Position numbers and translations under genes: made by a program
Shown: positions 1,295-31,287 of the stretch, piece after piece
Numbering within the stretch: the stretch's first letter is position 1
Layout of the letters: each line of letters starts with the position of its first letter
The notes under the pieces: generated by a model
Seen by the model: the letters and a program-made list of their open reading frames with translations, nothing else
What the model was told of the DNA's origin: nothing
The model's database searches: none
Assembly (NCBI GenBank): GCA_023151255.1
Contig: JAKLJG010000018.1
Location: 12,277 to 45,630 of the forward strand
From: Cyclobacteriaceae bacterium
GTDB lineage: Bacteria > Bacteroidota > Bacteroidia > Cytophagales > Cyclobacteriaceae
DNA length: 33,354 bases
Direction: 5' to 3'

Positions 1295-3997
1295 TTATAC
1301 GGAGATCATGCTGAGTTTGGTGCTACGGGGCAAAACCACTTTAAAAGTAGTACCCAAATCAATCTGCGAGGTAAAGGATATTTGGCCATCCAGCTTTTCA
1401 ACAGCCTTTTTTACAATGTATAAGCCCAGTCCATTACCTTTAGAATAATGGCTGGCTCTGAAGTACATATCAAAAATTTTATCGTGGTAGGCCGCATCTA
1501 TCCCATGGCCGTTGTCGGTTAATTCCATCACCACCTTGTCTCCTTCTTCATAAACCTGTAAACTAAGTTTGGGGTTTACGGGCGAAGCAAACTGAAGAGA
1601 ATTCTCAACCAGGTTTTCTAAAATAACTTTTATCAGTACCGGGTATGAAGTAAAAGGGGTTGTCAGGTTAACGGTGCAGTCTATCAGAAAATGTTTGTGT
1701 GTTAATTCTTCGCGGTAACTGTCACAAACCGAATCAAACAGTTCACGGATAGCCACTTCTTTATAATACAACTCCAGGGTGCCCACATCGCTGATGGATT
1801 GAAGTTTCACCAGCATTTTATCCAGGTTCATGGCTGTTTCACGCACCCGTTCAAACAGTTCTAACGCAGCCGGATCTTTAACGGTAATTTTAGCCACCTC
1901 GGCCAGCCCCAAAAACGTAGTAAGTGGTCGCCTGAAGTCGTGCGATGACCGGTAAAAAAAGGTATCCAGCTCTTTATAGGCTTGCTTTAATTCGTTAGTA
2001 CGCCTGTTCACCTCTTCTTCCAGGCCGCGGTTAATTTCATTAATGGTTTGGTTGGCCTCCATCAGTTCTTCCGACTGGGCCTGGATTTCTTCCTGCTTCT
2101 CGGCCAACTGTTGGTTAAGTTTGGTTAGTTCCCTGTTCGCCTCGGTCAACTCTTCGGTTTGAGTCTGTATCTCTTCATGTTGCTCCTTTATTTCCAGGTG
2201 AGCGCGTTGAATTGTGCGTTTTGATTTGTAAATGTTCCAGGCCAATGCACTTATCAGTATAAAGGCAAAAATTGTAGATGCGATAACCAATCGCTGTGTT
2301 TGAATTTGCGCCTGCTGTAATAACAGTTGGTTCTCTCTTGTTTGTTTTTCCTGGTTTAGCAGTTGTATCTGCTGTTCTTTCTGTTCAATCTGGTAGATGG
2401 CCTGCATTTCGGCCATCTTTGCCCGGCTGCTGGTAGTATAAATACTGTCGCTCAACACCTTTGCCTTTCGCTGGTATTCAAACGCCTTTTTGTAATCGGC
2501 ACGGTTACTGTAAAACTCCGCATAGTTTTCAAAGTTATTTTTAAGCAGCAACCGTGAGTTGGTTTCGAGGGCCGCTTTATTTGCCAAACGCAGATACTTC
2601 TCGGCTTCTCCAAACTGGTTAAGGCGCATTAGCGTTTTTGCAATGGCATTATACGAAATACCCTGACTAAGCTTATTGGTTACCCGTTCTTCAATGCTTA
2701 TAGCCTGTTTTTGAAGCGCCAGGGCTTTCTCAAGTTGACCCATATCTTCATAGACTAATGATAAGTTGAAGATGACCGCAGATATTCCTTCCAAATGGCC
2801 TATTATTTCTCTGATTTGTTTTGATTTCTCCAATTCCTGAATGGCTTCGGCATGCCGTTTTTGTAACAGGTAAATAAGGCCGCGAACATTGTGACAGTAT
2901 GAAACACCATGTTGGTTGCCAATGGCGGTGTTAATTGTCTGCGAACGATTTACATAATCTAATGCCAGGTCATAGTTTCCTAACTCCTTATATACCCATG
3001 CCAACTCGCTATAAGCAGTTGCCGTACGCAAACGCAGGTTGTGCTTTTCAGTGATTTTAAGCGTTTCGTAAAAATATTTGGCCGCCATCTCAAACTGGCC
3101 AAGGTCCTCGTAAATCTCACCAATGCGTTGAAGCACTTCGGCTTGTTGTGGTGGATATTGGTATTGTTTAAGGATTTCAAATGCTTCAAAGGCTTCTTCA
3201 AGAGCTTCGGAGTAATTGCTTTGGCGCAGCGCCAGGCCAGCCAGACCAAGGTGACATTGAATGAGCTGGTACCGGTTCGAAATTTTATCTACCAGCGCCA
3301 TGCCCTTCAGGTAGTACTCCTTTGCTTTATCATACTGCAACAAATTGGCATAGGCATTTCCGGTATATAACCAGATGCCTATTTGAAGAACAGGATCGTA
3401 AATTTCATCCACATATTGCTGGGCTAATGCCAGCGCCTCCAGTGCTTCAACATTGCGATACCTGATCACGTTGGTTAAGCCAATGTTTTTATAGGCGGTG
3501 GCAATGGATTTTTTATCGTCTGTTGTCATCGCCTCCTTCAGAGCCAGGTTATAGTAATACCCGGCCGAATCAAAGTTGGACAAATCGCGGTAAGCACTAC
3601 CCATCATGGAATAATTATAAACAGTGAGCTCAGTTGCATTTTCAACTTTTACAGAATCAGCAAGACGATAATACCGGAAGGCCATCGGAAAATCGGATTT
3701 GCTGACATAGCCAATCCCCACATAACAGTAACTACGCTTAATACCTTTACCATAATTTAAAGCCAGTGCCTGCTTTAAAGCTTTCTCGGCAAATTCAAGC
3801 GCCAGCGAGTCATCAAAATCATAGAGCTCATAGGCTATATCGCAGAGAATATCAACCCGTTTTTCAGGATTTCGCTCGATGGTTAGTACCGTGCGAAGGC
3901 TGTCGGCCACCGGGGTTTGAGCCCCCAAGCGGACGGTAAGGAGCAGAGCAAAAATGCTCAGTTGCAAAAACCTGATAATTAACCTCACTGCAGACAA
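1295..3997 (-). CDS. TPR-containing membrane sensor histidine kinase
   Basis: The 900-residue protein begins with a signal sequence (about 1-26). A long array of tetratricopeptide repeats follows to about residue 500 in the periplasm (units such as EALEEAFEAFEIL and QFEMAAKYFYETL), then a coiled coil and one membrane helix at about 567-588. A cytoplasmic coiled coil holds the duplicated motif EEIQTQTEEL / EEIQAQSEEL. The kinase core has the phospho-acceptor His686 in SSHDFRRPL, an N box at 792-804, the ATP-binding DNGHG at 828-832 and the glycine box NGLGLYI at about 855. No receiver or output domain is fused and no response regulator lies next to it, so its partner is unknown. Architectures like this are common in Bacteroidota; the signal is not known. 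It heads an operon with the acyltransferase gene. Confidence 0.93.
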   Translation of the reverse strand: MSAVRLIIRFLQLSIFALLLTVRLGAQTPVADSLRTVLTIERNPEKRVDILCDIAYELYDFDDSLALEFAEKALKQALALNYGKGIKRSYCYVGIGYVSKSDFPMAFRYYRLADSVKVENATELTVYNYSMMGSAYRDLSNFDSAGYYYNLALKEAMTTDDKKSIATAYKNIGLTNVIRYRNVEALEALALAQQYVDEIYDPVLQIGIWLYTGNAYANLLQYDKAKEYYLKGMALVDKISNRYQLIQCHLGLAGLALRQSNYSEALEEAFEAFEILKQYQYPPQQAEVLQRIGEIYEDLGQFEMAAKYFYETLKITEKHNLRLRTATAYSELAWVYKELGNYDLALDYVNRSQTINTAIGNQHGVSYCHNVRGLIYLLQKRHAEAIQELEKSKQIREIIGHLEGISAVIFNLSLVYEDMGQLEKALALQKQAISIEERVTNKLSQGISYNAIAKTLMRLNQFGEAEKYLRLANKAALETNSRLLLKNNFENYAEFYSNRADYKKAFEYQRKAKVLSDSIYTTSSRAKMAEMQAIYQIEQKEQQIQLLNQEKQTRENQLLLQQAQIQTQRLVIASTIFAFILISALAWNIYKSKRTIQRAHLEIKEQHEEIQTQTEELTEANRELTKLNQQLAEKQEEIQAQSEELMEANQTINEINRGLEEEVNRRTNELKQAYKELDTFFYRSSHDFRRPLTTFLGLAEVAKITVKDPAALELFERVRETAMNLDKMLVKLQSISDVGTLELYYKEVAIRELFDSVCDSYREELTHKHFLIDCTVNLTTPFTSYPVLIKVILENLVENSLQFASPVNPKLSLQVYEEGDKVVMELTDNGHGIDAAYHDKIFDMYFRASHYSKGNGLGLYIVKKAVEKLDGQISFTSQIDLGTTFKVVLPRSTKLSMISV

Positions 3998-4856: not shown

Positions 4857-5675
4857 ATGAAAGGAAACCGTTTCTTACCCTTTATTATCCTTGGTGTTAT
4901 CGCCCTGTTTGTAATAGCCGGCATTTCATCAAGCTTATTTTACACCGTTCAGGCCGATGAGCGGGCTGTAATTTTTTACAAATTTGGCAGCGGACTGGAT
5001 AAAGAAAACGTTATTCAGCCAGGATTTCACACCAAGGCCCCTTGGAACGATGTGTACATCTATACGGTGCGCGAAACAGCCACCGATGAGAATATGGATG
5101 TGCTGGATAAAAATGGTTTGCCTATTCATGTGGACGTAACCGTTCGTTTTTATCCCGTTCCGGAAAAAATAGGATACATCCACGAAAAGTTTAACCGCGG
5201 TTACGTAAATACCCTCATTATACCCGAAGCCCGCTCTGCCGTACGCCAGGTGATGGGCCGTTACACAGCCGAAGAGATTTATTCAACCAAACGGGCCGAA
5301 GTGGAAAACACCATCAAGTCGGAATGTGAAAACATCCTCAGCCAAAACAATGTACACATGGCCGCCCTGCTTATTCGGTCCATCCAGTTGCCTGAACAAA
5401 TTCGGGTGGCTATCCAAAACAAATTGCAACAGGAGCAGGAGGCACTGGCATATCAGTTTAGATTGGAAAAAGAAAAAAGTGAAGCCGAACGCAAGCGCAT
5501 TCAGGCCGAAGGTGAAGCCCGTGCAAACAATATTATTAATAACAGCCTTACCGATAAACTGCTAAAAATGAGAGGGATAGAAGCAACTCTTGAATTGGCG
5601 AAATCGCCCAACTCGAAAATTGTAGTAGTGGGCTCAGGCAAAGATGGCTTGCCGATGATACTGGGAAATAATTAA
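4857..5675 (+). CDS. Prohibitin-family SPFH/band 7 membrane protein
   Basis: The 272-residue protein has one N-terminal membrane anchor (about 8-29) followed by a band 7/SPFH domain (about 30-200) beginning TVQADERAVIFYKFG and including the stretch NTLIIPEARSAVRQVM. A charged coiled coil with KEKSEAERKRIQAEGEARA occupies about 200-235. Members assemble into large rings at the cytoplasmic membrane and are thought to organise membrane microdomains and to restrain FtsH-type proteases. The architecture and length match bacterial prohibitin homologues. It lies between a membrane protein and citrate synthase on the same strand. No protease gene is adjacent. Confidence 0.92.
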   Translation: MKGNRFLPFIILGVIALFVIAGISSSLFYTVQADERAVIFYKFGSGLDKENVIQPGFHTKAPWNDVYIYTVRETATDENMDVLDKNGLPIHVDVTVRFYPVPEKIGYIHEKFNRGYVNTLIIPEARSAVRQVMGRYTAEEIYSTKRAEVENTIKSECENILSQNNVHMAALLIRSIQLPEQIRVAIQNKLQQEQEALAYQFRLEKEKSEAERKRIQAEGEARANNIINNSLTDKLLKMRGIEATLELAKSPNSKIVVVGSGKDGLPMILGNN

Positions 5676-5744: not shown

Positions 5745-7031
5745 ATGGCAAAAACGGCTGAACTTATTATCGATGGTAAATCATACACCTTCCCTGTTAT
5801 TGAAGGAAGCGAAAAGGAACTGGCTATCGACATCAGTGACCTTCGCGATAAAACCGGATACATAACGCTTGACATCGGATACAAAAACACCGGTTCAACC
5901 AAAAGTGCCATCACTTTTCTGGACGGTGAGCAGGGTGTATTACACTACCGGGGCTATGCTATCGAAGAACTGGCCGAAAAGTCAACATTTCTGGAAGTAG
6001 CTTACCTGTTGATTTTCGGTGAACTACCCACCAAGGCCGAGTACGAAAAATTTACTTCTGATATTACCAAGCGTACCTTGGTGCATGAAGACATTAAAAA
6101 AATACTGGACGGGTTTCCGTCAACCTCACACCCGATGGGTGTGCTTTCATCACTTTTCTGTGCACAAACGGCCTTTTACCCTGAGTCGCTTAATCCTAAC
6201 CGGCCTCCGGATGGCGTGTACCTGAGCATCATCCGCTCGCTGGGTAAAATGCCCACCTTCGCGGCATGGTCGTACAAAAATGCGGTAGGCCACCCGGTGA
6301 ACTACCCGGATAACAAGCTTGATTACTGCGCCCGATTTTTAAAAATGATGTTTGCCCTTCCCGGGCAGGATTATGAAGTTGACCCGGTTGTTGCCGATGC
6401 CCTTGATAAACTCTTCATCCTCCATGCCGATCACGAGCAGAACTGCTCCACTTCTACGGTTCGGATTGTAGGGTCATCCAAAGCAAGTATTTATTCAGCC
6501 ATATCCGCAGGCATCAATGCCCTGTGGGGCCCCTTGCACGGAGGCGCCAACCAGGAAGTAATCATTATGCTGGAAAACATCCGCAAAGATGGCGGAAACA
6601 TTGACAAGTGGATCGCCAAAGCAAAAGACAAAAACGATCCGTTCCGGCTTATGGGCTTTGGTCACCGGGTTTATAAAAACTTCGATCCCCGCGCCAAAAT
6701 CATCAAAAAAGCAGCTGATGATGTATTGAAAAAGCTGGGCGTAAACGATCCGATTCTGGATATCGCAAAACAACTCGAAGAGATTGCATTAAAGGATCCG
6801 TATTTTGTAGAGCGTAAACTATACCCTAACGTTGATTTCTACTCAGGCATCATTTACCGGGCATTGGGCATTCCGGTAGATATGTTCACCGTTATGTTTG
6901 CCATGGGCCGCCTGCCCGGCTGGATAGCCCAGTGGAAAGAACTACGCGATCAGGGCGAACCCATTGGCAGGCCGCGCCAGGTGTATACCGGTAAAACCCT
7001 CCGGCCGTTTGTTCCCATCGATAAACGTTAG
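5745..7031 (+). CDS. gltA: Citrate synthase
   Basis: This 428-residue enzyme condenses acetyl-CoA with oxaloacetate to citrate, the entry step of the TCA cycle. The catalytic triad is visible: His265 in GPLHGGANQE, His307 in GFGHRVYK and Asp364 in NVDFYSGI, at nearly the same numbering as the E. coli enzyme (264, 305, 362). The N-terminal extra domain beginning AELIIDGKSYTFPVIEG is typical of the hexameric type II enzymes inhibited by NADH. The ATG at 5745 is chosen over an in-frame TTG at 5676 because family members begin at this point and the upstream 23 codons look like leader DNA. That leader contains TATATTTA about 30 bases before the ATG, a possible promoter element. An intrinsic terminator follows the gene. 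Confidence 0.98.
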   Translation: MAKTAELIIDGKSYTFPVIEGSEKELAIDISDLRDKTGYITLDIGYKNTGSTKSAITFLDGEQGVLHYRGYAIEELAEKSTFLEVAYLLIFGELPTKAEYEKFTSDITKRTLVHEDIKKILDGFPSTSHPMGVLSSLFCAQTAFYPESLNPNRPPDGVYLSIIRSLGKMPTFAAWSYKNAVGHPVNYPDNKLDYCARFLKMMFALPGQDYEVDPVVADALDKLFILHADHEQNCSTSTVRIVGSSKASIYSAISAGINALWGPLHGGANQEVIIMLENIRKDGGNIDKWIAKAKDKNDPFRLMGFGHRVYKNFDPRAKIIKKAADDVLKKLGVNDPILDIAKQLEEIALKDPYFVERKLYPNVDFYSGIIYRALGIPVDMFTVMFAMGRLPGWIAQWKELRDQGEPIGRPRQVYTGKTLRPFVPIDKR

Positions 7032-7056
7032 GCAATACCATCCATTTGAATTTCTG

Positions 7057-7089
7057 AGGCTGAAGGATTACTTTCAGCCTTATTTTTTT
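7057..7089 (+). terminator. Intrinsic terminator after citrate synthase, abutting the next start codon
   Basis: AGGCTGAA (7057-7064) pairs perfectly with TTCAGCCT (7073-7080) around an eight-base loop and is followed by TA and seven T (7083-7089). The T run ends directly at the ATG of the acyl-CoA-binding protein gene (7090), so terminator and translation start region overlap. Confidence 0.85.
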
Positions 7090-7353
7090 ATGGAACTAAC
7101 CGAACAATTCGACCAGGCCATAGCCCGATCGAAAGAATTAACCAAACGGCCGACCAATGAAGAGTTGCTTCGGCTCTATGCGTTATATAAACAAGGATCT
7201 GAGGGCGATGTTAACGGAGAGCGTCCCGGTGGTTTTGATTTTAAGGCGCTTGCAAAATACGATGCATGGGCACAACTTAAAGGTAAAACCCGCCAACAGG
7301 CCATGCAAGAGTACATCGACCTGGTAAAAAAGTTAGAGGAAACCTATCGGTAA
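7090..7353 (+). CDS. Acyl-CoA-binding protein (ACBP)
   Basis: The 87-residue protein is a complete ACBP domain: an N-terminal helix ELTEQFDQAIARSKEL, then the signature LRLYALYKQGSEGDVNGERP and the segment KYDAWAQLKGKTRQQAMQEY. ACBPs bind medium- and long-chain acyl-CoA esters in the cytoplasm and buffer or deliver them; they are widespread in eukaryotes and patchy in bacteria. The length matches the family (86-90) only if the ATG at 7090 is used; longer frames run back into citrate synthase. The gene follows citrate synthase and is six bases ahead of rsmE, with which it is probably co-transcribed. The start codon sits against the T run of the preceding terminator, so any transcript must either read through or start within that hairpin. 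Confidence 0.95.
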   Translation: MELTEQFDQAIARSKELTKRPTNEELLRLYALYKQGSEGDVNGERPGGFDFKALAKYDAWAQLKGKTRQQAMQEYIDLVKKLEETYR

Positions 7354-7359
7354 CCGGGT

Positions 7360-8085
7360 ATGCAAACCCTGTTTTATCAGCCGGGCATTTTAGCAGGACT
7401 CAATTACCTTACCCCGGAAGAATCACGGCATTGTATTAAAGTGCTCCGCAAAAAAAATGGCGACCACATTTTTATTACTGATGGAGCGGGAGTACTTGCT
7501 GAAGCCGTCATTACAAACGCTTCGCCTGATAAGTGCGTGTTTAACGTACAGTACGTAAATCACCAGCCAAACCGCGGATATTCATTACGGATGGCTATAG
7601 CCCCAACAAAAAATGCTGAACGGATGGAGTGGCTTATTGAAAAATGTGTGGAGATTGGGATTGATCGCATTTCGTTTATTCAAACTGCACATTCAGAACG
7701 AACAAAAGTAAATGTGGAACGCATGCAGAAAATTGCCATCAGTGCAATGAAGCAGGCCCTACAACCGTTTTGTCCGGTCATTGATCCGCTGCTTTCCTTT
7801 GGTCAGTTCATAAGCAGCATATTTAGCGGCCAGCGATTTATTGCAAAAGGTCATCATGGTAACACCCATCTGATGGATAGTGCTGGGGCCGGCCAGGCTT
7901 ATACGGTTTTGATTGGTCCGGAGGGCGATTTCACCGATGATGAACTTTTGCAGGCCGAAAATTCCGGTTTTATCCCTGTTTCATTGGGTAATTCCAGGCT
8001 GCGTACAGAAACAGCAGGCCTGACGGCCTGCCTCACCATCAGTCTGATAAACAGGCAATTGAACCAAAACCTTACACAGCCATGA
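7360..8085 (+). CDS. rsmE: 16S rRNA (uracil-1498-N3)-methyltransferase
   Basis: The 241-residue protein matches RsmE, a SPOUT-class enzyme that uses S-adenosylmethionine to methylate U1498 of 16S rRNA in the assembled 30S subunit. The N-terminal RNA-binding domain contains LTPEESRHCIKVLRKKNGD. The knotted methyltransferase core shows AERMEWLIEKCVEIGID, AISAMKQALQPFCPVI, IGPEGDFTDDEL and the C-terminal knot SLGNSRLRTETAGLTA. Length and motif order are standard. The start ATG lies six bases after the ACBP gene. The stop codon overlaps an ATG of a 15-codon frame that I do not consider a gene. Confidence 0.97.
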   Translation: MQTLFYQPGILAGLNYLTPEESRHCIKVLRKKNGDHIFITDGAGVLAEAVITNASPDKCVFNVQYVNHQPNRGYSLRMAIAPTKNAERMEWLIEKCVEIGIDRISFIQTAHSERTKVNVERMQKIAISAMKQALQPFCPVIDPLLSFGQFISSIFSGQRFIAKGHHGNTHLMDSAGAGQAYTVLIGPEGDFTDDELLQAENSGFIPVSLGNSRLRTETAGLTACLTISLINRQLNQNLTQP

Positions 8086-24848: not shown

Positions 24849-24878
24849 AAAAAAGTCCTGACCGTTGGTCAGGACTTT
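24849..24878 (-). terminator. Intrinsic terminator of the tRNA-like RNA
   Basis: AAAGTCCTGACC (24852-24863) and GGTCAGGACTTT (24867-24878) form a perfect 12-bp stem with a three-base loop. Read on the minus strand the stem ends in six T (24854-24849). It lies 25 bases after the CCA end of the tRNA-like gene and before fadD, so it must terminate that RNA; no other gene could use it. Confidence 0.9.
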
Positions 24879-24903: not shown

Positions 24904-25072
24904 TGGCTGTAGAGGGAGGGCTCGAACCTCCACGGGGAAGTTAGCTACAGAACAACCAGTGGTGGTCAACCCCTGTCTGCCACAATACCTGCGGCAGGCT
25001 ATATCCTGCGTTTATCCTTGACTCCCCACCCCCGAGACAGGAGGGCTTGTCTGCCAATTTCAACACCCTACA
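24904..25072 (-). tRNA. Class II tRNA-like RNA with an 84-nt insertion in the variable arm
   Basis: Read on the minus strand, the 169 bases fold as a complete tRNA. The acceptor stem is TGTAGGG (25072-25066) with CTCTACA (24914-24908), six Watson-Crick pairs and one G-U. Then come T8 and G9, and a three-pair D stem TTG/CAA with loop AAATTGGCAGA, as in leucine tRNAs. The anticodon stem is CCCTC/GGGGG with loop CTGTCTC, so the anticodon would be GTC. The variable stem is GGGGA (25027-25023) with TCCCC (24938-24934), the T arm is GGAGG-TTCGAGC-CCTCC (24931-24915), and the end is G73 and encoded CCA (24904-24906). T8-A14 and A15-T48 tertiary pairs are possible. The 84 bases at 24939-25022 form the variable-arm loop; without them the RNA is 85 nt, the usual class II length. 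Position 37 is T, which is unusual. A strong terminator follows. Whether it is charged and works in translation, is a regulatory RNA, or is a decaying gene cannot be told from the sequence. Confidence 0.7.
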
Positions 25073-25194: not shown

Positions 25195-25659
25195 ATGCCA
25201 CAGTTTTATAAAATCGACAATACGGACTTAAAGATTCTTGAAATCTTAATGCGCGATGCAAGCAGGCCGCTTACTGAAATAGCCAATAAGGTACATGTAT
25301 CAGTAGGCACCGTGCATGTAAGAACCAACAAGCTACGCGAAGCCGGAATCATTGAGAAAACTACACTTAAAGTGAACTACACAAAGCTTGGGTACGACAT
25401 CACCGCTTTTATAGGTATCTTCCTGGAAAAGAGCGCTTTATACGATTCCGTGATGGCTAAACTTAAAGCCATACCTGAAATTACCAATATCCATTATACT
25501 ACCGGCAACTACAGCATGTTTGTAAAAATCCACTGCAAAGACACCAACCACCTCAAGCAGGTATTACATGATAAAATCCAGCAGGTTGATGGCATTGAAC
25601 GAACTGAAACAATGATTTCACTGGAAGAAAGCCTGGACCGAAACCTGAATCTTCTCTAA
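25195..25659 (+). CDS. Lrp/AsnC-family transcription regulator
   Basis: The 154-residue protein has an N-terminal winged helix-turn-helix (about 6-55; IDNTDLKILEILMRDASRPL then EIANKVHVSVGTVHVRTNKL) and a C-terminal RAM/AsnC ligand-binding domain (about 70-145, with YTTGNYSMFVKIHCKD). Such proteins form dimers to octamers and sense amino acids or related small molecules. The start codon ATG at 25195 is preceded by a very AT-rich stretch (25100-25194), a plausible site for self-regulation, which it shares with the upstream side of the divergent tRNA-like gene. It is 82 bases ahead of sufB, on the same strand. A link to the suf operon is possible but not shown. Confidence 0.95.
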   Translation: MPQFYKIDNTDLKILEILMRDASRPLTEIANKVHVSVGTVHVRTNKLREAGIIEKTTLKVNYTKLGYDITAFIGIFLEKSALYDSVMAKLKAIPEITNIHYTTGNYSMFVKIHCKDTNHLKQVLHDKIQQVDGIERTETMISLEESLDRNLNLL

Positions 25660-25741: not shown

Positions 25742-27187
25742 ATGAGCAAAGACAATCAGCTGTTGGAAGAACTCACCTCCCGGGAATATGAGCACGGCTG
25801 GACTTCCGATATTGAAATGGAGTCGGCTCCAAAGGGCCTTAATGAAGACATCATCCGGTTTATAAGCGCCAAGAAGAATGAACCCGACTGGCTGCTGCAA
25901 TGGCGACTGAAAGCATACCGTACGTGGACAACGATGGCAGAACCAAAATGGCCTAACGTTACCTACCCGGCAATCAATTACCAGGACATCATCTATTATG
26001 CGGCACCCAAGCAAAAAGCAAAGCCTAAAAGCCTGGAAGACGTTGACCCTGAATTACTAAAAACCTTCGAAAAACTGGGCATTTCGCTTACTGAGCAAAA
26101 ACGCCTTACCGGGGTTGCGGTTGATGCCGTGTTGGACAGCGTATCCGTAGCAACAACATTTAAAGAAAAGCTTGCCGAACTGGGCATCATCTTCTGTTCA
26201 TTCAGCGAAGCGGTACGCGAACACCCGGAACTGGTAAAAAAATACCTGGGCTCGGTTGTGCCGATGAATGACAACTACTTCGCGGCTCTTAACTCGGCTG
26301 TTTTCAGCGATGGCTCCTTTTGCTACATACCCAAAGGTGTTCGCTGTCCCATGGAATTGTCAACCTATTTTCGGATCAACGCGGCCAACACCGGCCAGTT
26401 TGAACGTACCCTGATTGTGGCCGATGAAGGTTCGTACGTCAGTTACCTGGAAGGCTGCACAGCCCCTCAGCGCGATGAAAACCAGCTACATGCCGCAGTG
26501 GTTGAAATCTATGCGATGAAAGATGCCCACGTAAAATATTCAACCGTGCAAAACTGGTATCCGGGCGATAAGGAAGGCAAGGGAGGCATCTACAATTTCG
26601 TTACCAAGCGGGCCTTGTGTGCGGGAGAAAACTCCAAAGTATCGTGGACGCAGGTTGAAACCGGCTCGGCCATTACCTGGAAATATCCTTCGTGTGTACT
26701 AAAGGGCGATAACTCCAGCGGTGAGTTCTACTCGGTAGCTGTTACCAACAATTACCAGCAGGCCGATACCGGAACTAAAATGATTCACATCGGCCGCAAC
26801 ACCAAATCGCGAATTGTTTCAAAGGGTATCTCAGCCGGCCATTCACAAAACAGCTACCGTGGCCAGGTGCATGTATTAAAACGTGCTGAAAATGCCCGCA
26901 ACTTTTCGCAGTGCGACTCGCTGCTGATGGGCAACAAATGCGGGGCACACACCTTCCCCTATATTGATGTGGAGAATAATACAGCTCGTGTGGAGCACGA
27001 AGCAACAACATCAAAAATTGGTGAAGACCAGATTTTTTACTGCCTTCAACGAGGCATTGATGAAGAATCAGCCGTGGCCCTGATTGTAAACGGCTACGCC
27101 AAAGAAGTGCTTAACCAGTTACCGATGGAATTCGCAGTAGAAGCACAAAAACTGCTTGCACTAACACTGGAAGGAAGTGTCGGGTGA
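25742..27187 (+). CDS. sufB: Fe-S cluster assembly scaffold SufB
   Basis: The 481-residue protein is SufB, the scaffold subunit of the SufBCD complex on which new Fe-S clusters are built in the cytoplasm. Recognisable parts are the N-terminal [20 protein letters not shown], the core [18 protein letters not shown] and [18 protein letters not shown]. The C-terminal [18 protein letters not shown] carries the cysteine that in E. coli SufB (Cys405) takes part in cluster building, and [20 protein letters not shown] follows it. Length is standard. It opens the suf cluster. A 63-base gap with a 14-base tandem repeat separates it from sufC. Confidence 0.99.
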
Positions 27188-27214
27188 TCGATTCAGCACA
27201 CACATACTTAATAA

Positions 27215-27242
27215 CCTTGAACTTTAAACCTTGAACTTTGAA
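27215..27242 (+). repeat. Tandem 14-base repeat between sufB and sufC
   Basis: Two adjacent 14-base units, CCTTGAACTTTAAA (27215-27228) and CCTTGAACTTTGAA (27229-27242), differ at one base. Each unit is itself two related heptamers of the form CTTNGAA. The array ends eight bases before the sufC ATG, leaving no room for a Shine-Dalgarno sequence. Related arrays occur at 31287 and 31811. Confidence 0.85.
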
Positions 27243-27250
27243 CTATACGT

Positions 27251-28006
27251 ATGCTATCAATAAAAAACTTAAGTGCACAGATTGACGGAAAGCAAATCCT
27301 TAACGGGATAAACCTGGAGGTTAAAGCCGGAGAAGTTCACGCTATTATGGGGCCCAACGGTTCGGGTAAAAGCACATTGGCCTCAGTACTGGCCGGCCGC
27401 GAAGAGTTTGAAGTAACCGGTGGCGAAGTGGAATACCTTGGAAAAAATCTGCTGGAATTGGAGCCTGACGAACGCGCCCGTGAAGGCGTATTCCTGGCAT
27501 TTCAGTACCCGGTTGAAATTCCAGGGGTGAGCACCATCAACTTTATGAAAACAGCGGTGAACCAGGTGCGCGAACACCGCGGACAGGATCCGCTGGATGC
27601 CGTTTCCTTCCTGGGGCTGATGAAAGAAAAAATGAAACTGGTTGAAATCGACCAGTCGCTATTGAACCGGTCCCTCAACGAAGGCTTCTCAGGCGGAGAA
27701 AAAAAACGCAATGAAATTTTTCAGATGGCCATGCTCGAACCCAAACTGGCCATACTGGATGAAACAGACTCCGGGCTTGATATTGACGCCTTGAAAATTG
27801 TAGCCAATGGTGTCAACAAATTGCGGTCTAAGAATAACGCCATTATTGTGGTTACCCACTACCAGCGACTGCTTAACTACATCGTTCCCGATTTTGTACA
27901 CGTGCTCTACAAAGGAAAAATTGTAAAATCAGGTGGAAAAGAGTTGGCATTGGAACTGGAAGCCAAAGGATACGATTGGATTAAAAGTGAGGCAGAAGTC
28001 GTATGA
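27251..28006 (+). CDS. sufC: Fe-S cluster assembly ATPase SufC
   Basis: The 251-residue ABC-type ATPase drives conformational change of SufBCD during cluster assembly. The Walker A motif is GPNGSGKST (34-42), the signature motif is GFSGGEKKRNEIFQM, and Walker B runs into LDETDSGLDIDALK, with the H-loop in VVTHYQRLL. All are intact and at standard spacing for SufC. It overlaps sufD by four bases (ATGA), so translation of the two is coupled. Confidence 0.99.
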   Translation: MLSIKNLSAQIDGKQILNGINLEVKAGEVHAIMGPNGSGKSTLASVLAGREEFEVTGGEVEYLGKNLLELEPDERAREGVFLAFQYPVEIPGVSTINFMKTAVNQVREHRGQDPLDAVSFLGLMKEKMKLVEIDQSLLNRSLNEGFSGGEKKRNEIFQMAMLEPKLAILDETDSGLDIDALKIVANGVNKLRSKNNAIIVVTHYQRLLNYIVPDFVHVLYKGKIVKSGGKELALELEAKGYDWIKSEAEVV

Positions 28007-29280
28007 ACGCAGCTTCAACAAATACCGAATTGCTTGAAGTGCTTGCCGGACAAGCAAGCAATCAAAGTAATCTCCGCCAGGAAGCCCTTCGCGTATTTCG
28101 TCAACTGGGTTTACCCAACAATAAAACCGAAGAGTACAAATACACACCGATTACCCGCGTGCTGCAAAAAGAGTTGCAGCTAAGCAACTTGTTTGTAACC
28201 GATGGTAGTACACCTGCAGAAGAAAAATGGATCATCCCGGTACAGGATACTTACCGGGTTGTATTATTGAACGGGTACTTTGTTACGGATAAATCCTTCC
28301 TGCCCAGTAACGTAACGGTGAAACCCATGCTGCAGGCAGCTGAAAAACTGCACGGGCACATCGGCAGGTATGCCGACTTCAAAACCGATGCCTTCGCAGC
28401 CTGGAACACGGCTGTATGGAGTGACGGCCTTTATCTGGAAATACCTGAGGGCATTAAACTGGACAAACCACTCATTATATATTACCTCCACGATTCCACC
28501 AAAGGGCAGGTTAAATCGGTAAGCCGGAACATGCTAATAGCCGGTGCAGGAAGCGAGGCTACCATAATTGAGAAATGGCAATCGTTTGGGAATAATCCAG
28601 TCATTTCAAATACCCTGTCAGAAATCGTATTACACGAAAATGCACAGGTCAATCACCTGGTTATTCAACACGATGGCCTCACACATATCCAATACCTCTT
28701 TAACCAGTTCTGGCAACACACCAAAAGCTGCCTGAACAGCCATGTATTTACCTTAGAGGGTGCCTTCATCCGAAACAATACACGCGTGTGCCTCGATGGA
28801 GAACATTGTGAAAGCCACCTTTACGGATTATACCTGCTGCATAATAGTACCTTAGCCGATAATCATACGGTGGTTGATCACCGGAAGCCGAACTCGAACA
28901 GTAATGAGTTATATAAAGGAATCCTGGAAGACCAGGCCAAAGGCGTATTTAACGGGAAAATCTTTGTACGACCGGATGCACAAAAAACAAATGCCTTTCA
29001 ATCCAACCGCAATATTTTACTTTCCGACAAAGCTACTATCAATACCAAACCCCAGCTTGAAATCTGGGCCGATGATGTAAAGTGCTCGCACGGCTGCACC
29101 ACCGGCCAACTGGATGAAGAGGCCATCTTTTACCTGCGTTCGCGCGGTATTAACCACGAAACTGCCCGGGCCATGGTACTCTATGCTTTTGCCAGCGAAG
29201 TGCTTGAAACAATAACTGACACTTCACTGAGAACCTATATCGATAACCTTGTCAGCGAGAGGCTGCATAAAAACTTCTGA
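28003..29280 (+). CDS. sufD: Fe-S cluster assembly protein SufD
   Basis: The 425-residue protein is the SufB paralogue SufD, which completes the SufB-SufC2-SufD complex and is needed for iron entry. The start has the helical TEEYKYTPITRVL segment. The beta-helix core includes FVRPDAQKTNAFQSNRNILL, and the C-terminal ADDVKCSHGCTTGQLDEEAI contains the conserved His of the metal site. The final segment FYLRSRGINHETARAMVLYA is family standard. Its ATG overlaps the stop codon of sufC and its stop lies two bases before sufS. Confidence 0.98.
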   Translation: MNAASTNTELLEVLAGQASNQSNLRQEALRVFRQLGLPNNKTEEYKYTPITRVLQKELQLSNLFVTDGSTPAEEKWIIPVQDTYRVVLLNGYFVTDKSFLPSNVTVKPMLQAAEKLHGHIGRYADFKTDAFAAWNTAVWSDGLYLEIPEGIKLDKPLIIYYLHDSTKGQVKSVSRNMLIAGAGSEATIIEKWQSFGNNPVISNTLSEIVLHENAQVNHLVIQHDGLTHIQYLFNQFWQHTKSCLNSHVFTLEGAFIRNNTRVCLDGEHCESHLYGLYLLHNSTLADNHTVVDHRKPNSNSNELYKGILEDQAKGVFNGKIFVRPDAQKTNAFQSNRNILLSDKATINTKPQLEIWADDVKCSHGCTTGQLDEEAIFYLRSRGINHETARAMVLYAFASEVLETITDTSLRTYIDNLVSERLHKNF

Positions 29281-29282
29281 AG

Positions 29283-30518
29283 ATGAACAGTCAGGTTACT
29301 GTTGCTAATGTTGCAGAAATACGGAAGCAATTCCCGGTACTGAACCAGCAGGTAAATGGCCGTAACCTGGTTTATTTTGATAATGCCGCCACCACACAAA
29401 AACCGCTTCGTGTAATCAATGCGTTAATCGAGTACTACACGGGCTATAATGCCAATATACACCGGGGCATTCATACCCTGGCCGAAAGAGCAACCCGGGC
29501 GTATGAAGAAACACGGCAGGCAGCAAAAGACTTCATTAATGCCAATTTTGCGGAAGAGATAATATTTGTTCGCGGAGTTACCGAGGCCATTAACCTCGTT
29601 GCTTCTTCATACGGAAGAACTTTTTTACAGCTTGGTGACGAGGTAATTATCTCCGGCCTTGAGCATCACTCCAACATAGTTCCGTGGCAATTGGTTTGCG
29701 AAGAGAGGAGGGCTTATCTTAAAATCATTCCGGTTTTAGAAAATGGCGAACTTGATCTGGATGCGTACCAGAAACTACTAACCCGGCAAACCAAAATTGT
29801 GGCCGTCAATCACGCATCCAACAGCTTGGGAACGATTAACCCGATTAAAGAGATTATTGACTTGGCCCATCAAGCGGGCGCAGTAGTATTGATTGACGGG
29901 GCACAAGCAGGCGCGCATTTGCCCATTGACGTTCAGCAACTCGATTGTGATTTCTATTGCCTCTCTTCGCATAAAATGTACGGACCAACCGGTACAGGCA
30001 TTCTTTACGGCAAAAGAGAAGTGCTTGAAAAAATGCCTCCCTACCAGGGCGGAGGGGAAATGATCAAAGAAGTTACTTTCGCAAAAACAACATATAATGA
30101 CCTGCCCCATAAATTTGAAGCCGGCACACCCAACATTGCCGATACCATTGCTTTTAAAAGCGCAATAGACTTTATTAATGAGATCGGGAAGGAAAACATA
30201 GCTGCTCATGAAAGCACCCTGCTTGCTTACGCTACCGAAAAAGCAGGAGCCTTACCCGGAGTTCGAATCATCGGCCAGGCACCGCACAAAGTAAGTGTTC
30301 TGTCGTTTATTATTGATGATATTCATCCGTTCGACATTGGCCAAATGCTGGATGCCCGCGGCATAGCCGTCCGCACCGGGCATCATTGCACACAACCCCT
30401 GATGGACCAGTTCGGTGTTGAAGGAACTGTTCGCGCCTCGTTCGCAGTTTATAACACCAAAGATGAAATTGATCATATGATGGAGGGACTTACCCGCATC
30501 ATTAACTTTATGAAATGA
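29283..30518 (+). CDS. sufS: Cysteine desulfurase SufS
   Basis: The 411-residue enzyme takes sulfur from cysteine as a persulfide for Fe-S assembly, using pyridoxal phosphate. Lys231 in SSHKMYGPTG holds the cofactor and Cys369 in RTGHHCTQPLMD carries the persulfide; the short RxGHHC loop marks the group II (SufS) type that needs SufE. The N-terminal NLVYFDNAATTQKP and the histidine in GLEHHSNIVPWQ are also intact. The stop codon overlaps the sufE start in ATGA. Confidence 0.99.
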   Translation: MNSQVTVANVAEIRKQFPVLNQQVNGRNLVYFDNAATTQKPLRVINALIEYYTGYNANIHRGIHTLAERATRAYEETRQAAKDFINANFAEEIIFVRGVTEAINLVASSYGRTFLQLGDEVIISGLEHHSNIVPWQLVCEERRAYLKIIPVLENGELDLDAYQKLLTRQTKIVAVNHASNSLGTINPIKEIIDLAHQAGAVVLIDGAQAGAHLPIDVQQLDCDFYCLSSHKMYGPTGTGILYGKREVLEKMPPYQGGGEMIKEVTFAKTTYNDLPHKFEAGTPNIADTIAFKSAIDFINEIGKENIAAHESTLLAYATEKAGALPGVRIIGQAPHKVSVLSFIIDDIHPFDIGQMLDARGIAVRTGHHCTQPLMDQFGVEGTVRASFAVYNTKDEIDHMMEGLTRIINFMK

Positions 30519-30946
30519 AATCCATCGCTGACATACAAAACGAGATTATACAGGAATTCCTGCTGTTAGATGGCGATATGGAGATGATCGTTTTTTACAT
30601 CATGGAACTTGGGCAAAAACTGCCGGCAATGAACGAATCGGATAAAACAGATGAAAATCTGGTAAAAGGGTGCCAATCAAAGGTGTGGCTCACAGCCCGG
30701 TTACAAAACGACAGCGTTTACTTTGAAGCCGACAGCAACACGGCCATCACCAAAGGCCTGGTAAGTTTACTGGTACGGATTTTCAACGGGCAAACTCCGG
30801 AAGCCATATTAAATGCCGATTTGTACTTTATGAACAAAATCGGAATGGACCGGTTTATCGGTACGCAGCGGTCAAACGGTTTTGCCGCCATGATTAAACA
30901 AATGAAGTTGTACGCGCTGGCTTTTAAAACAAAACAAGAAGCATGA
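30515..30946 (+). CDS. sufE: Sulfur-transfer protein SufE
   Basis: The 143-residue protein accepts the persulfide from SufS on Cys53 (KGCQSKVWL) and passes it to SufB. The SufE family line YIMELGQKLPAM is followed by NESDKTDENLVKGC, and the later TPEAILNADLYFMNKIGM is also typical. It overlaps both its neighbours by four bases, which fixes its start and implies coupled translation with SufS. Confidence 0.98.
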   Translation: MKSIADIQNEIIQEFLLLDGDMEMIVFYIMELGQKLPAMNESDKTDENLVKGCQSKVWLTARLQNDSVYFEADSNTAITKGLVSLLVRIFNGQTPEAILNADLYFMNKIGMDRFIGTQRSNGFAAMIKQMKLYALAFKTKQEA

Positions 30947-31287
30947 AAGAAGAAAATCAAACAGACGTGCAGCAGACCGAAATAACCAACCTTCGGGAGA
31001 AGGTGATAAACGCGATTAAAAGCGTGTATGACCCGGAAATACCCGTTGATATCTACGAACTTGGTTTAATCTATGAAATAAATGTATATCCAATAAACAA
31101 CGTGTATGTGCTGATGACGCTTACCTCACCCTCCTGCCCTTCGGCAGAAGTAATACCCGGTGAAGTGGAGCAGAAGATAAAAGCCATAGAAGGCGTAAAC
31201 GATGTGAAAGTTGAAATTACATTCGATCCGCCCTACTCGCAGGACATGATGAGCGAAGCCGCTAAACTGGAACTCGGATTTTTATAG
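30943..31287 (+). CDS. sufT: SufT-like Fe-S maturation protein (DUF59/MIP18 family)
   Basis: The 114-residue protein is a DUF59 domain with the family lines VYDPEIPVDIYELGLIYEI and MTLTSPSCPSAEVIPGEV, including conserved Cys65. SufT proteins help to maintain or transfer clusters, above all when demand for Fe-S is high; a related domain occurs in PaaD. No A-type carrier (SufA) is present in the cluster, so SufT may be the only extra maturation factor encoded here. The stop codon shares its last base with the first repeat unit that follows. Confidence 0.93.
   Translation: MKEENQTDVQQTEITNLREKVINAIKSVYDPEIPVDIYELGLIYEINVYPINNVYVLMTLTSPSCPSAEVIPGEVEQKIKAIEGVNDVKVEITFDPPYSQDMMSEAAKLELGFL

Follow-up and report, generated by a model that had tools for sequence, protein, structure and literature searches.

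We asked what an RNA with a complete class II tRNA fold and a 95-nt variable arm might do in a bacterium. The RNA lies at 25072-24904 on the minus strand of a 33,354-nt stretch of a Cyclobacteriaceae genome (the window, meaning that whole stretch), and its arm falls outside the range of about 10-25 nt that is usual for bacterial class II tRNAs. A first-pass annotation had read four tRNA stems, G18-G19, the T loop and an encoded CCA on this strand, a length of 169 nt including CCA and a 12-bp terminator on the 3' side. All of these readings were borne out: the RNA has a 7-bp acceptor stem, D, anticodon and T arms, a TTCRA T loop and G18-G19, and is followed by a terminator-like hairpin of 12 pairs. 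Its parts, and the gene that diverges from it, are as follows.

24904..25072, minus strand: whole tRNA-like RNA, with U1 at 25072, G73 at 24907 and encoded CCA at 24906-24904
24908..25072, minus strand: acceptor stem, TGTAGGG (25072-25066) paired with CTCTACA (24914-24908)
25047..25063, minus strand: D arm, 3-bp stem TTG/CAA (25063-25061/25049-25047), G18-G19 at 25055-25054
25029..25045, minus strand: anticodon arm, stem CCCTC/GGGGG (25045-25041/25033-25029), loop CTGTCTC (25040-25034)
25038-25036, 25035 and 25034, minus strand: anticodon loop bases GUC, U37 and C38
24933..25027, minus strand: variable arm of 95 nt, outer stem 25027-25024/24937-24934
25017-25016/24940-24939, minus strand: two-pair step of the variable arm
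25015-25011 and 24944-24941, minus strand: internal loop of the variable arm, AUAAA and CUAA, with the variable hairpin between them
24915..24931, minus strand: T arm, GGAGG/CCTCC (24931-24927/24919-24915), loop TTCGAGC
24852..24878, minus strand: terminator-like hairpin of 12 pairs, then a T-rich tail
25195..25659, plus strand: regulator gene of the Lrp/AsnC family, divergent from the element; closest NCBIfam model AsnC (E 4e-50, below its cut-off)

The fold is supported by comparison

Standard finders passed over the element. ARAGORN called no tRNA within the whole window, and Rfam at E<=1 gave no tRNA match there; its sole match, to MicX, was set aside as chance. A tRNA with a group I intron was also rejected, as Rfam gave no intron match in the window and the extra length lies in the variable arm, not in the anticodon loop. 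The minimum free energy fold of the single sequence contained no cloverleaf and was no better than shuffles (z -0.05), so that the evidence for the fold is comparative and not energetic.

Sixty copies, 58 of them distinct, were extracted from fetched stretches, and two more were cut by contig ends. The covariation test was based on alignment A1, which holds 41 copies selected by their core with 3 changes allowed. Cloverleaf and variable-arm pairing was kept in 95.1% of the 1225 cells of A1, against 86.9% in shuffles, with double-sided changes in 15 of 30 pairs; none of 500 shuffles was as high as the real alignment in any measure, and sliding the partners lowered pairing to 53-61%. The stems of the element thus covary. 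Within the variable arm, the conserved parts are an outer GGRG/CYCC stem of 4 bp, a two-pair step (paired in 92.7% in A1), an asymmetric internal loop AUAAA/CUAA and an adjoining hairpin that differs greatly in length among copies, which explains why this inner hairpin (helix 6) was paired in just 68.6%. The two inner stems proposed by the first-pass annotation did not hold up: among the 16 distinct copies with both stretches (window copy counted), 7 show complete GTCAA:TTGAC pairing, and stems similar to GCAGG...CCTGC occur in 8 of 58 distinct copies. The annotation would have counted the locus as a decayed gene or chance fold if it were neither conserved nor transcribed; conservation was found, and the element family is real, conserved and no pseudogene.

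The long arm is variable and dispensable

Element length to G73 ranged from 108 to 178 nt in the 60 copies, without a constant boundary, and 23 of the 58 distinct copies were shorter than 125 nt. The internal-loop arrangement A[TC]AAA...CTAA was present in 214/259 bacterial as against 4/19 viral distinct copies, and the motif GGGTWGACCA, confined to part of the forms of at least 136 nt, in 51/259 and 17/19, respectively. In one genus (g33, nine genomes) the element is a 76-nt class I RNA that lacks the long arm (loci L165 and L329-L336). ARAGORN called this form tRNA-Asp(atc) in 9/9 loci, its Rfam tRNA score was 40.8 bits in the 2 loci scanned, and it keeps U1-A72, G73 and the loop CTATCTC (copies read in 7 genomes). 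Standard annotation would enter it as tRNA-Asp with anticodon ATC, which to our knowledge is not expected in bacteria. Because the 76-nt form keeps the acceptor end and most of the loop, these are not dispensable, whereas the long arm is.

The first-pass annotation had placed all excess length in the variable arm as a discrete 84-nt insertion, and had offered a giant variable arm, an RNA-processed insertion or a tRNA-derived regulatory RNA. The location was right (the arm measures 95 nt), and the first of the three options describes the anatomy correctly, given the comparative fold. The lack of a constant boundary and the many short copies leave both the discrete insertion and its processing unsupported; with arms of such varied length, and a class I form in one genus, an insertion is not the essence of the element. 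The evidence below favours the third option, taken broadly as an RNA with a role beyond decoding.

In some copies the D, anticodon or variable arm is interrupted by a short palindrome, for example TCCCGATAGCTATCGGGA (L108:1674-1805 and 1854-1985, the third copy of L093, and the variable arms of L081, L090 and L102), as if small palindromes were inserting into this tRNA-like gene.

Distribution across Cytophagales and the class

BLASTN against 59 genomes, including the element's own, returned hits at E<=1 from 49, many of them full or two-piece copies and several of the weak ones chance. Five genomes of the same family (G012, G013, G024, G026 and G030) gave none or chance matches only. With a covariance model (R1) and presence set at a best E <= 9e-19 in the order and <= 3e-17 in the rest of the class, the element was found in at least 227 of 292 genomes of the order Cytophagales, among them all 54 of the own family in that sample; elsewhere in the class it was present in 56 of 377 genomes. 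The order count is a lower bound, as the copy of G050 is cut by contig ends. The 65 order genomes outside this count comprise G050, four without a match, the nine with the 76-nt form and a remainder with best E between 4e-7 and 6e-14. We regard the weaker hits as ordinary class II tRNAs picked up by the model, since those listed at E between 1e-11 and 1e-12 measure 80-87 nt, lengths that come from the class table, the order table being mostly without lengths for such matches.

Holders among the 80 listed of at least 119 stretches include Algoriphagus, Cyclobacterium, Dyadobacter, Flammeovirga, Runella, Emticicia and Fulvivirga, together with a Spirosoma MAG, an uncultured Chitinophaga and Saprospiraceae. 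Some genomes carry tandem copies. The window copy as blastn query gave no match in a plasmid collection, nor did one viral-contig copy in an annotated-phage collection. We recognised no description of this RNA in the literature searched or in Rfam 15.

Copies among tRNA genes on viral contigs

A search of IMG/VR with an exact anticodon-arm pattern retrieved 24 stretches, on contigs whose sizes range from 4 to 326 kb. The element is complete and scores at least 72 bits in 23 of them, and is truncated by the contig end in the remaining one. ARAGORN placed another tRNA or tmRNA within 0.4 kb in 22 of the 24 stretches, and within 0.7 kb in L305 and L326. Eight stretches have tRNA arrays of at least 14, and seven of the 24 carry an ordinary tRNA-Asp.

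Other RNAs occur on these contigs. L309 and L314 have a tmRNA gene directly 3' of the element, and one of the two also holds a GOLLD RNA (268 bits); these RNAs lie at L309:5143-5517 and 6933-7342 and at L314:1511-1856. There are also extra tRNA-Leu-like RNAs, 89-148 nt long, whose acceptor, D and T ends are similar and whose interiors differ (L307:6143-6262 and 7683-7830; L308:4907-5049 and 5866-5973; L320:3000-3088 and 3170-3298; L321:5065-5185 and 5270-5412; L323:7479-7599; L324:9201-9320). By eye they have no clear anticodon arm, and ARAGORN calls the one at L320:3000 alone.

Neighbouring genes and transcription

In E. coli, asnC is divergent from and adjoins asnA. The element has one recurring neighbour, a divergent AsnC-type gene, which lies within 1.5 kb of it in 26/41 rows of A1, 37/109 of A3 and 50/132 of A4, counts from partly overlapping sets in which many stretches reach just 1.5 kb past the element; it was found in 0/23 viral rows. 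Twelve loci without a nearby AsnC-type gene had as neighbours a pseudouridine synthase, an FtsX-like permease, the Obg GTPase, alanine dehydrogenase, peptidases and others. These 12 loci had no recurring partner gene, and 6 of the 20 proteins scanned there had no Pfam match. Beyond the AsnC-type gene of the window lies a suf cluster (SufB, SufC, SufD, SufE and an FeS assembly protein, 25742-31287); the second-upstream gene belongs to the same protein cluster as the window SufB in 30/60 copies.

The box TAnnTTTG, which we take to be of the Bacteroidota promoter type, occurs at -80 to -15 in 30/60 copies compared with about 4 in shuffles, and a strict hairpin with a T run within 120 nt 3' of the element in 15/60 copies compared with 1/300 shuffles; because the 60 copies are related, neither count is one of independent cases. 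The window copy lacks an exact box. By these signals the element looks like a stand-alone gene.

An Asp-type loop and a U1-A72 acceptor end

A1 and A3 together supplied 144 distinct copies for the loop statistics. Rows of A4 (132) and of the viral set (23) were left out because the fetching pattern had fixed most of their loop. G2-C71 is present in 144/144 copies and G73 in 143. Seven-base loops, found in 141 of the 144, have U35 in 141, C36 in 141, C38 in 139 and G34 in 131; position 34 can also be T, A or C. GUC, C38 and G73 stand together in 129/144 copies, including the window copy, which has all five bases; three of the 15 exceptions are due to a loop of another size. Decoding tRNAs as a rule carry U33 and a purine at 37. 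The element has a pyrimidine 37 in 138/141 loops and U33 in 118/141, with U33 replaced in 23; both decoding features coincide in just 3/144 copies, and the window copy has U33 and U37. The host has one ordinary tRNA-Asp; its loop, CTGTCAC, matches the element loop at every position but 37. This tRNA was among 35 ARAGORN calls covering 19 amino acids, from 30 of 37 Rfam tRNA loci; tRNA-Ile was not among them.

The published bacterial Asp identity set, as given in PMC9976931, consists of G73, G10, G34, U35, C36 and C38. The element matches it except for G10: a G occupies position 10 in 14/144 copies, and the window copy has U10. The acceptor end also carries U1-A72, the pair that bacterial GatCAB is described as recognising (PMC4206432), in 144/144 copies. 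Among 58 distinct copies, nucleotide 74 is C in 58, and CCA is encoded in 12, so that the encoded CCA noted in the window is no general feature. Nucleotide -1 varies (C 29, A 15, T 14), which leaves no constant eighth pair with G73.

The element and gatB occur together in glnS-positive genomes

Some bacteria own AsnRS, GlnRS and GatCAB together (67 to 68 of 547 genera), and Bacteroidetes are named among the groups that have all three but lack Asn synthetase (both PMC4206432). The own genome has AspRS, gatB, GlnRS and the ordinary tRNA-Asp, with AsnRS matches on contigs C16 and C3; its GatCAB is thus without an obvious decoding duty. Among 39 relatives, gatB (TIGR00133) was found in 35, AsnRS in 39 (37 over cut-off) and GlnRS over cut-off in 28. 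Within these 28, the element was present in 23/25 genomes with gatB and in 0/3 without. It was not found in the four gatB-negative relatives, of which G024 (83% complete) and G047 (88% complete) were searched with BLASTN alone. G012 and G013, of the own genus, have gatB and glnS and gave no BLASTN element match.

Outside the order, gatB accompanies the element in 55/56 genomes; G638, which lacks it, is an assembly of 390 contigs with 93% completeness. Here gatB matches weaker than 1e-80 (ten) were counted absent and taken as the ten below the family cut-off (299 of 309 class matches were over it), and glnS was scored positive at E <= 1e-60. In glnS-positive genomes, GlnRS makes GatCAB unneeded for Gln-tRNA. 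Of the 139 such genomes, 37 had both gatB and the element, 92 neither, nine gatB alone and one the element alone, for a Fisher p of 5e-24 that takes no account of kinship. The 238 glnS-negative genomes showed no association (18 both, 216 gatB only, 0 element only, 4 neither). Altogether 225/377 genomes have gatB without the element, 216 of them lacking glnS. The other nine, out of 46 with glnS and gatB, are eight genomes of family f33 and G676. The gatB match of f33 is weaker, near 1e-105, and the weaker gatB of these glnS-positive, element-less genomes is possibly a diverged amidotransferase.

The association was also seen within families: 14 genomes with both and 4 with neither in f59, 10 and 2 in f55, and 6 with both, 1 with the element only and 2 with neither in f23 (stratified exact p 4e-7, genomes within a family not being independent events). 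Kinship, not fully corrected, is the main caveat on this tie. Neither this link with gatB nor the AsnC-type neighbour, the viral copies, the U1-A72 pair or the Asp-type character of the loop had figured in the first-pass annotation.

A possible carrier for asparagine synthesis

The smallest account of these data, and our best reading, is an RNA that would be chargeable with Asp, amidable by GatCAB and discouraged from the ribosome. We tentatively propose that this conserved class II tRNA-like family may be a dedicated carrier for asparagine synthesis, on which Asp is amidated to Asn, although we put this at somewhat short of an even chance. The fuller version, a biosynthetic tRNA on which AspRS and GatCAB would make Asn, with an AsnC-type regulator, in many Bacteroidota and in phages with their own copy, is possible and is advanced with greater reserve. 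The element would have its own transcript, which RNase P would trim and to which CCA would be added as in a tRNA; the tRNA fold, G73-C74 and the mostly missing encoded CCA suggest this. AspRS would charge it with Asp through G34-U35-C36, C38 and G73, since the conserved bases match the Asp identity set except G10. GatCAB would read U1-A72 and amidate Asp to Asn, as the invariance of that pair and the co-retention of gatB indicate. The Asn would be released or passed on and kept from decoding, given the pyrimidine at position 37, the loss of U33 in some copies and the misreading that Asn on GUC would cause. The divergent AsnC-type regulator might adjust the element to asparagine supply. Against this reading, G10 is not kept and the G1-C72 of bacterial tRNA-Asp is replaced, and the long variable arm and G73 also fit SerRS. 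The 15/144 copies without the full set of GUC, C38 and G73, the genomes with gatB and no element (G012 and G013 of the own genus included) and the presence of the AsnC-type gene in only a minority of A3 and A4 rows and in no viral row likewise count against it.

Alternatives differ in what they leave unexplained. The gatB tie could run through tRNA-Asn itself and a relaxed (non-discriminating) AspRS, with no need of the element. The host tRNA-Asn begins with U1, and a non-discriminating AspRS acting on tRNA-Asn is a known route, described for Bdellovibrio (PMC4206432); taken alone, however, it leaves the joint gain and loss of gatB and element unexplained. It is rather unlikely that the element is a tRNA-derived regulatory RNA whose U35-C36-Y37-C38 pairs with GAGA-like sites or binds a protein, and whose charging merely stabilises it or senses how much Asp/Asn is available, a signal that would reach the AsnC-type regulator. 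Within the loop UCYC varies least, in contrast to positions 32-34, and the AsnC-type neighbour and tandem copies agree with such a role, but pairing alone accounts neither for the kept acceptor arm (U1-A72, G2-C71, G73) nor for the gatB tie.

That the element decodes GAY codons as a class II tRNA-Asp, phages included, we consider unlikely. The near-constant GUC, the place of the viral copies among tRNA genes and the translational activity of aptamer-tagged allo-tRNAs reported in PMC7590224 would suit it, yet pyrimidine 37, the replaced U33 and the ordinary tRNA-Asp in the host and in 7/24 viral stretches speak against it. Quite improbable is a serine acceptor like allo-tRNAs or tRNA-Sec, charged by SerRS through the long arm and G73. 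Bacterial Ser identity is given as G73, G2-C71 and a large variable region, and a change of A73 to G73 can turn Leu-type class II tRNAs to Ser (PMC9976931). The same source describes Ser identity as anticodon-independent, yet the element's loop is among its most constant parts; moreover, the 76-nt form keeps U1-A72, G73 and a related loop without the long arm, the element has A72 instead of the C72 of Ser, and the gatB tie would go unexplained. A decayed tRNA, attachment site or mobile insertion without a role is highly improbable: a few copies do have palindromic inserts in the D, anticodon or variable arm, but the element is conserved across the order and in some of the rest of the class, its stems covary, promoter-like boxes exceed those in shuffles and viral contigs carry it, all of which contradicts this reading.

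Relation to known RNAs

With bacterial tRNA-Asp (GUC) the element shares G34-U35-C36, C38 and G73, and ARAGORN gives its natural 76-nt form that name; it differs in U1-A72 in place of G1-C72, the missing G10, pyrimidine 37 and a class II body with the giant arm. With tRNA-Asn and tRNA-Gln of the GatCAB amidation pathway it shares U1-A72 and co-occurrence with gatB, whereas its anticodon is of the Asp type, its variable arm long and its position 37 a pyrimidine. Like tRNA-Sec and allo-tRNAs it is class II with a long arm, but its acceptor/T composition is 7/5, not their 8/5, 8/4 or 9/3. It has tRNA-like ends as tmRNA does, and tmRNA adjoins it on two viral contigs, yet it has a full anticodon arm and ARAGORN does not call it tmRNA. 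Its D loop, GAAATTGGTAGAC, is close to the GAAATTGGCAGAC of the host tRNA-Leu genes; unlike class II tRNA-Leu it has G73 and not A73 (PMC9976931), another anticodon and a variable arm several times longer.

Taken together, these results describe a tRNA gene family that spans the order, extends into other families of the class and whose long forms are missed by ARAGORN and the Rfam tRNA model. Should the carrier reading be wrong, a conserved, virus-carried and apparently non-decoding tRNA would still need explaining. If it is true, a tRNA would act as carrier for amino acid synthesis. This would give a reason for the coexistence of AsnRS, GlnRS and GatCAB in the 67 to 68 of 547 genera counted in PMC4206432, and would answer why many Bacteroidota keep GatCAB despite owning AsnRS and GlnRS.
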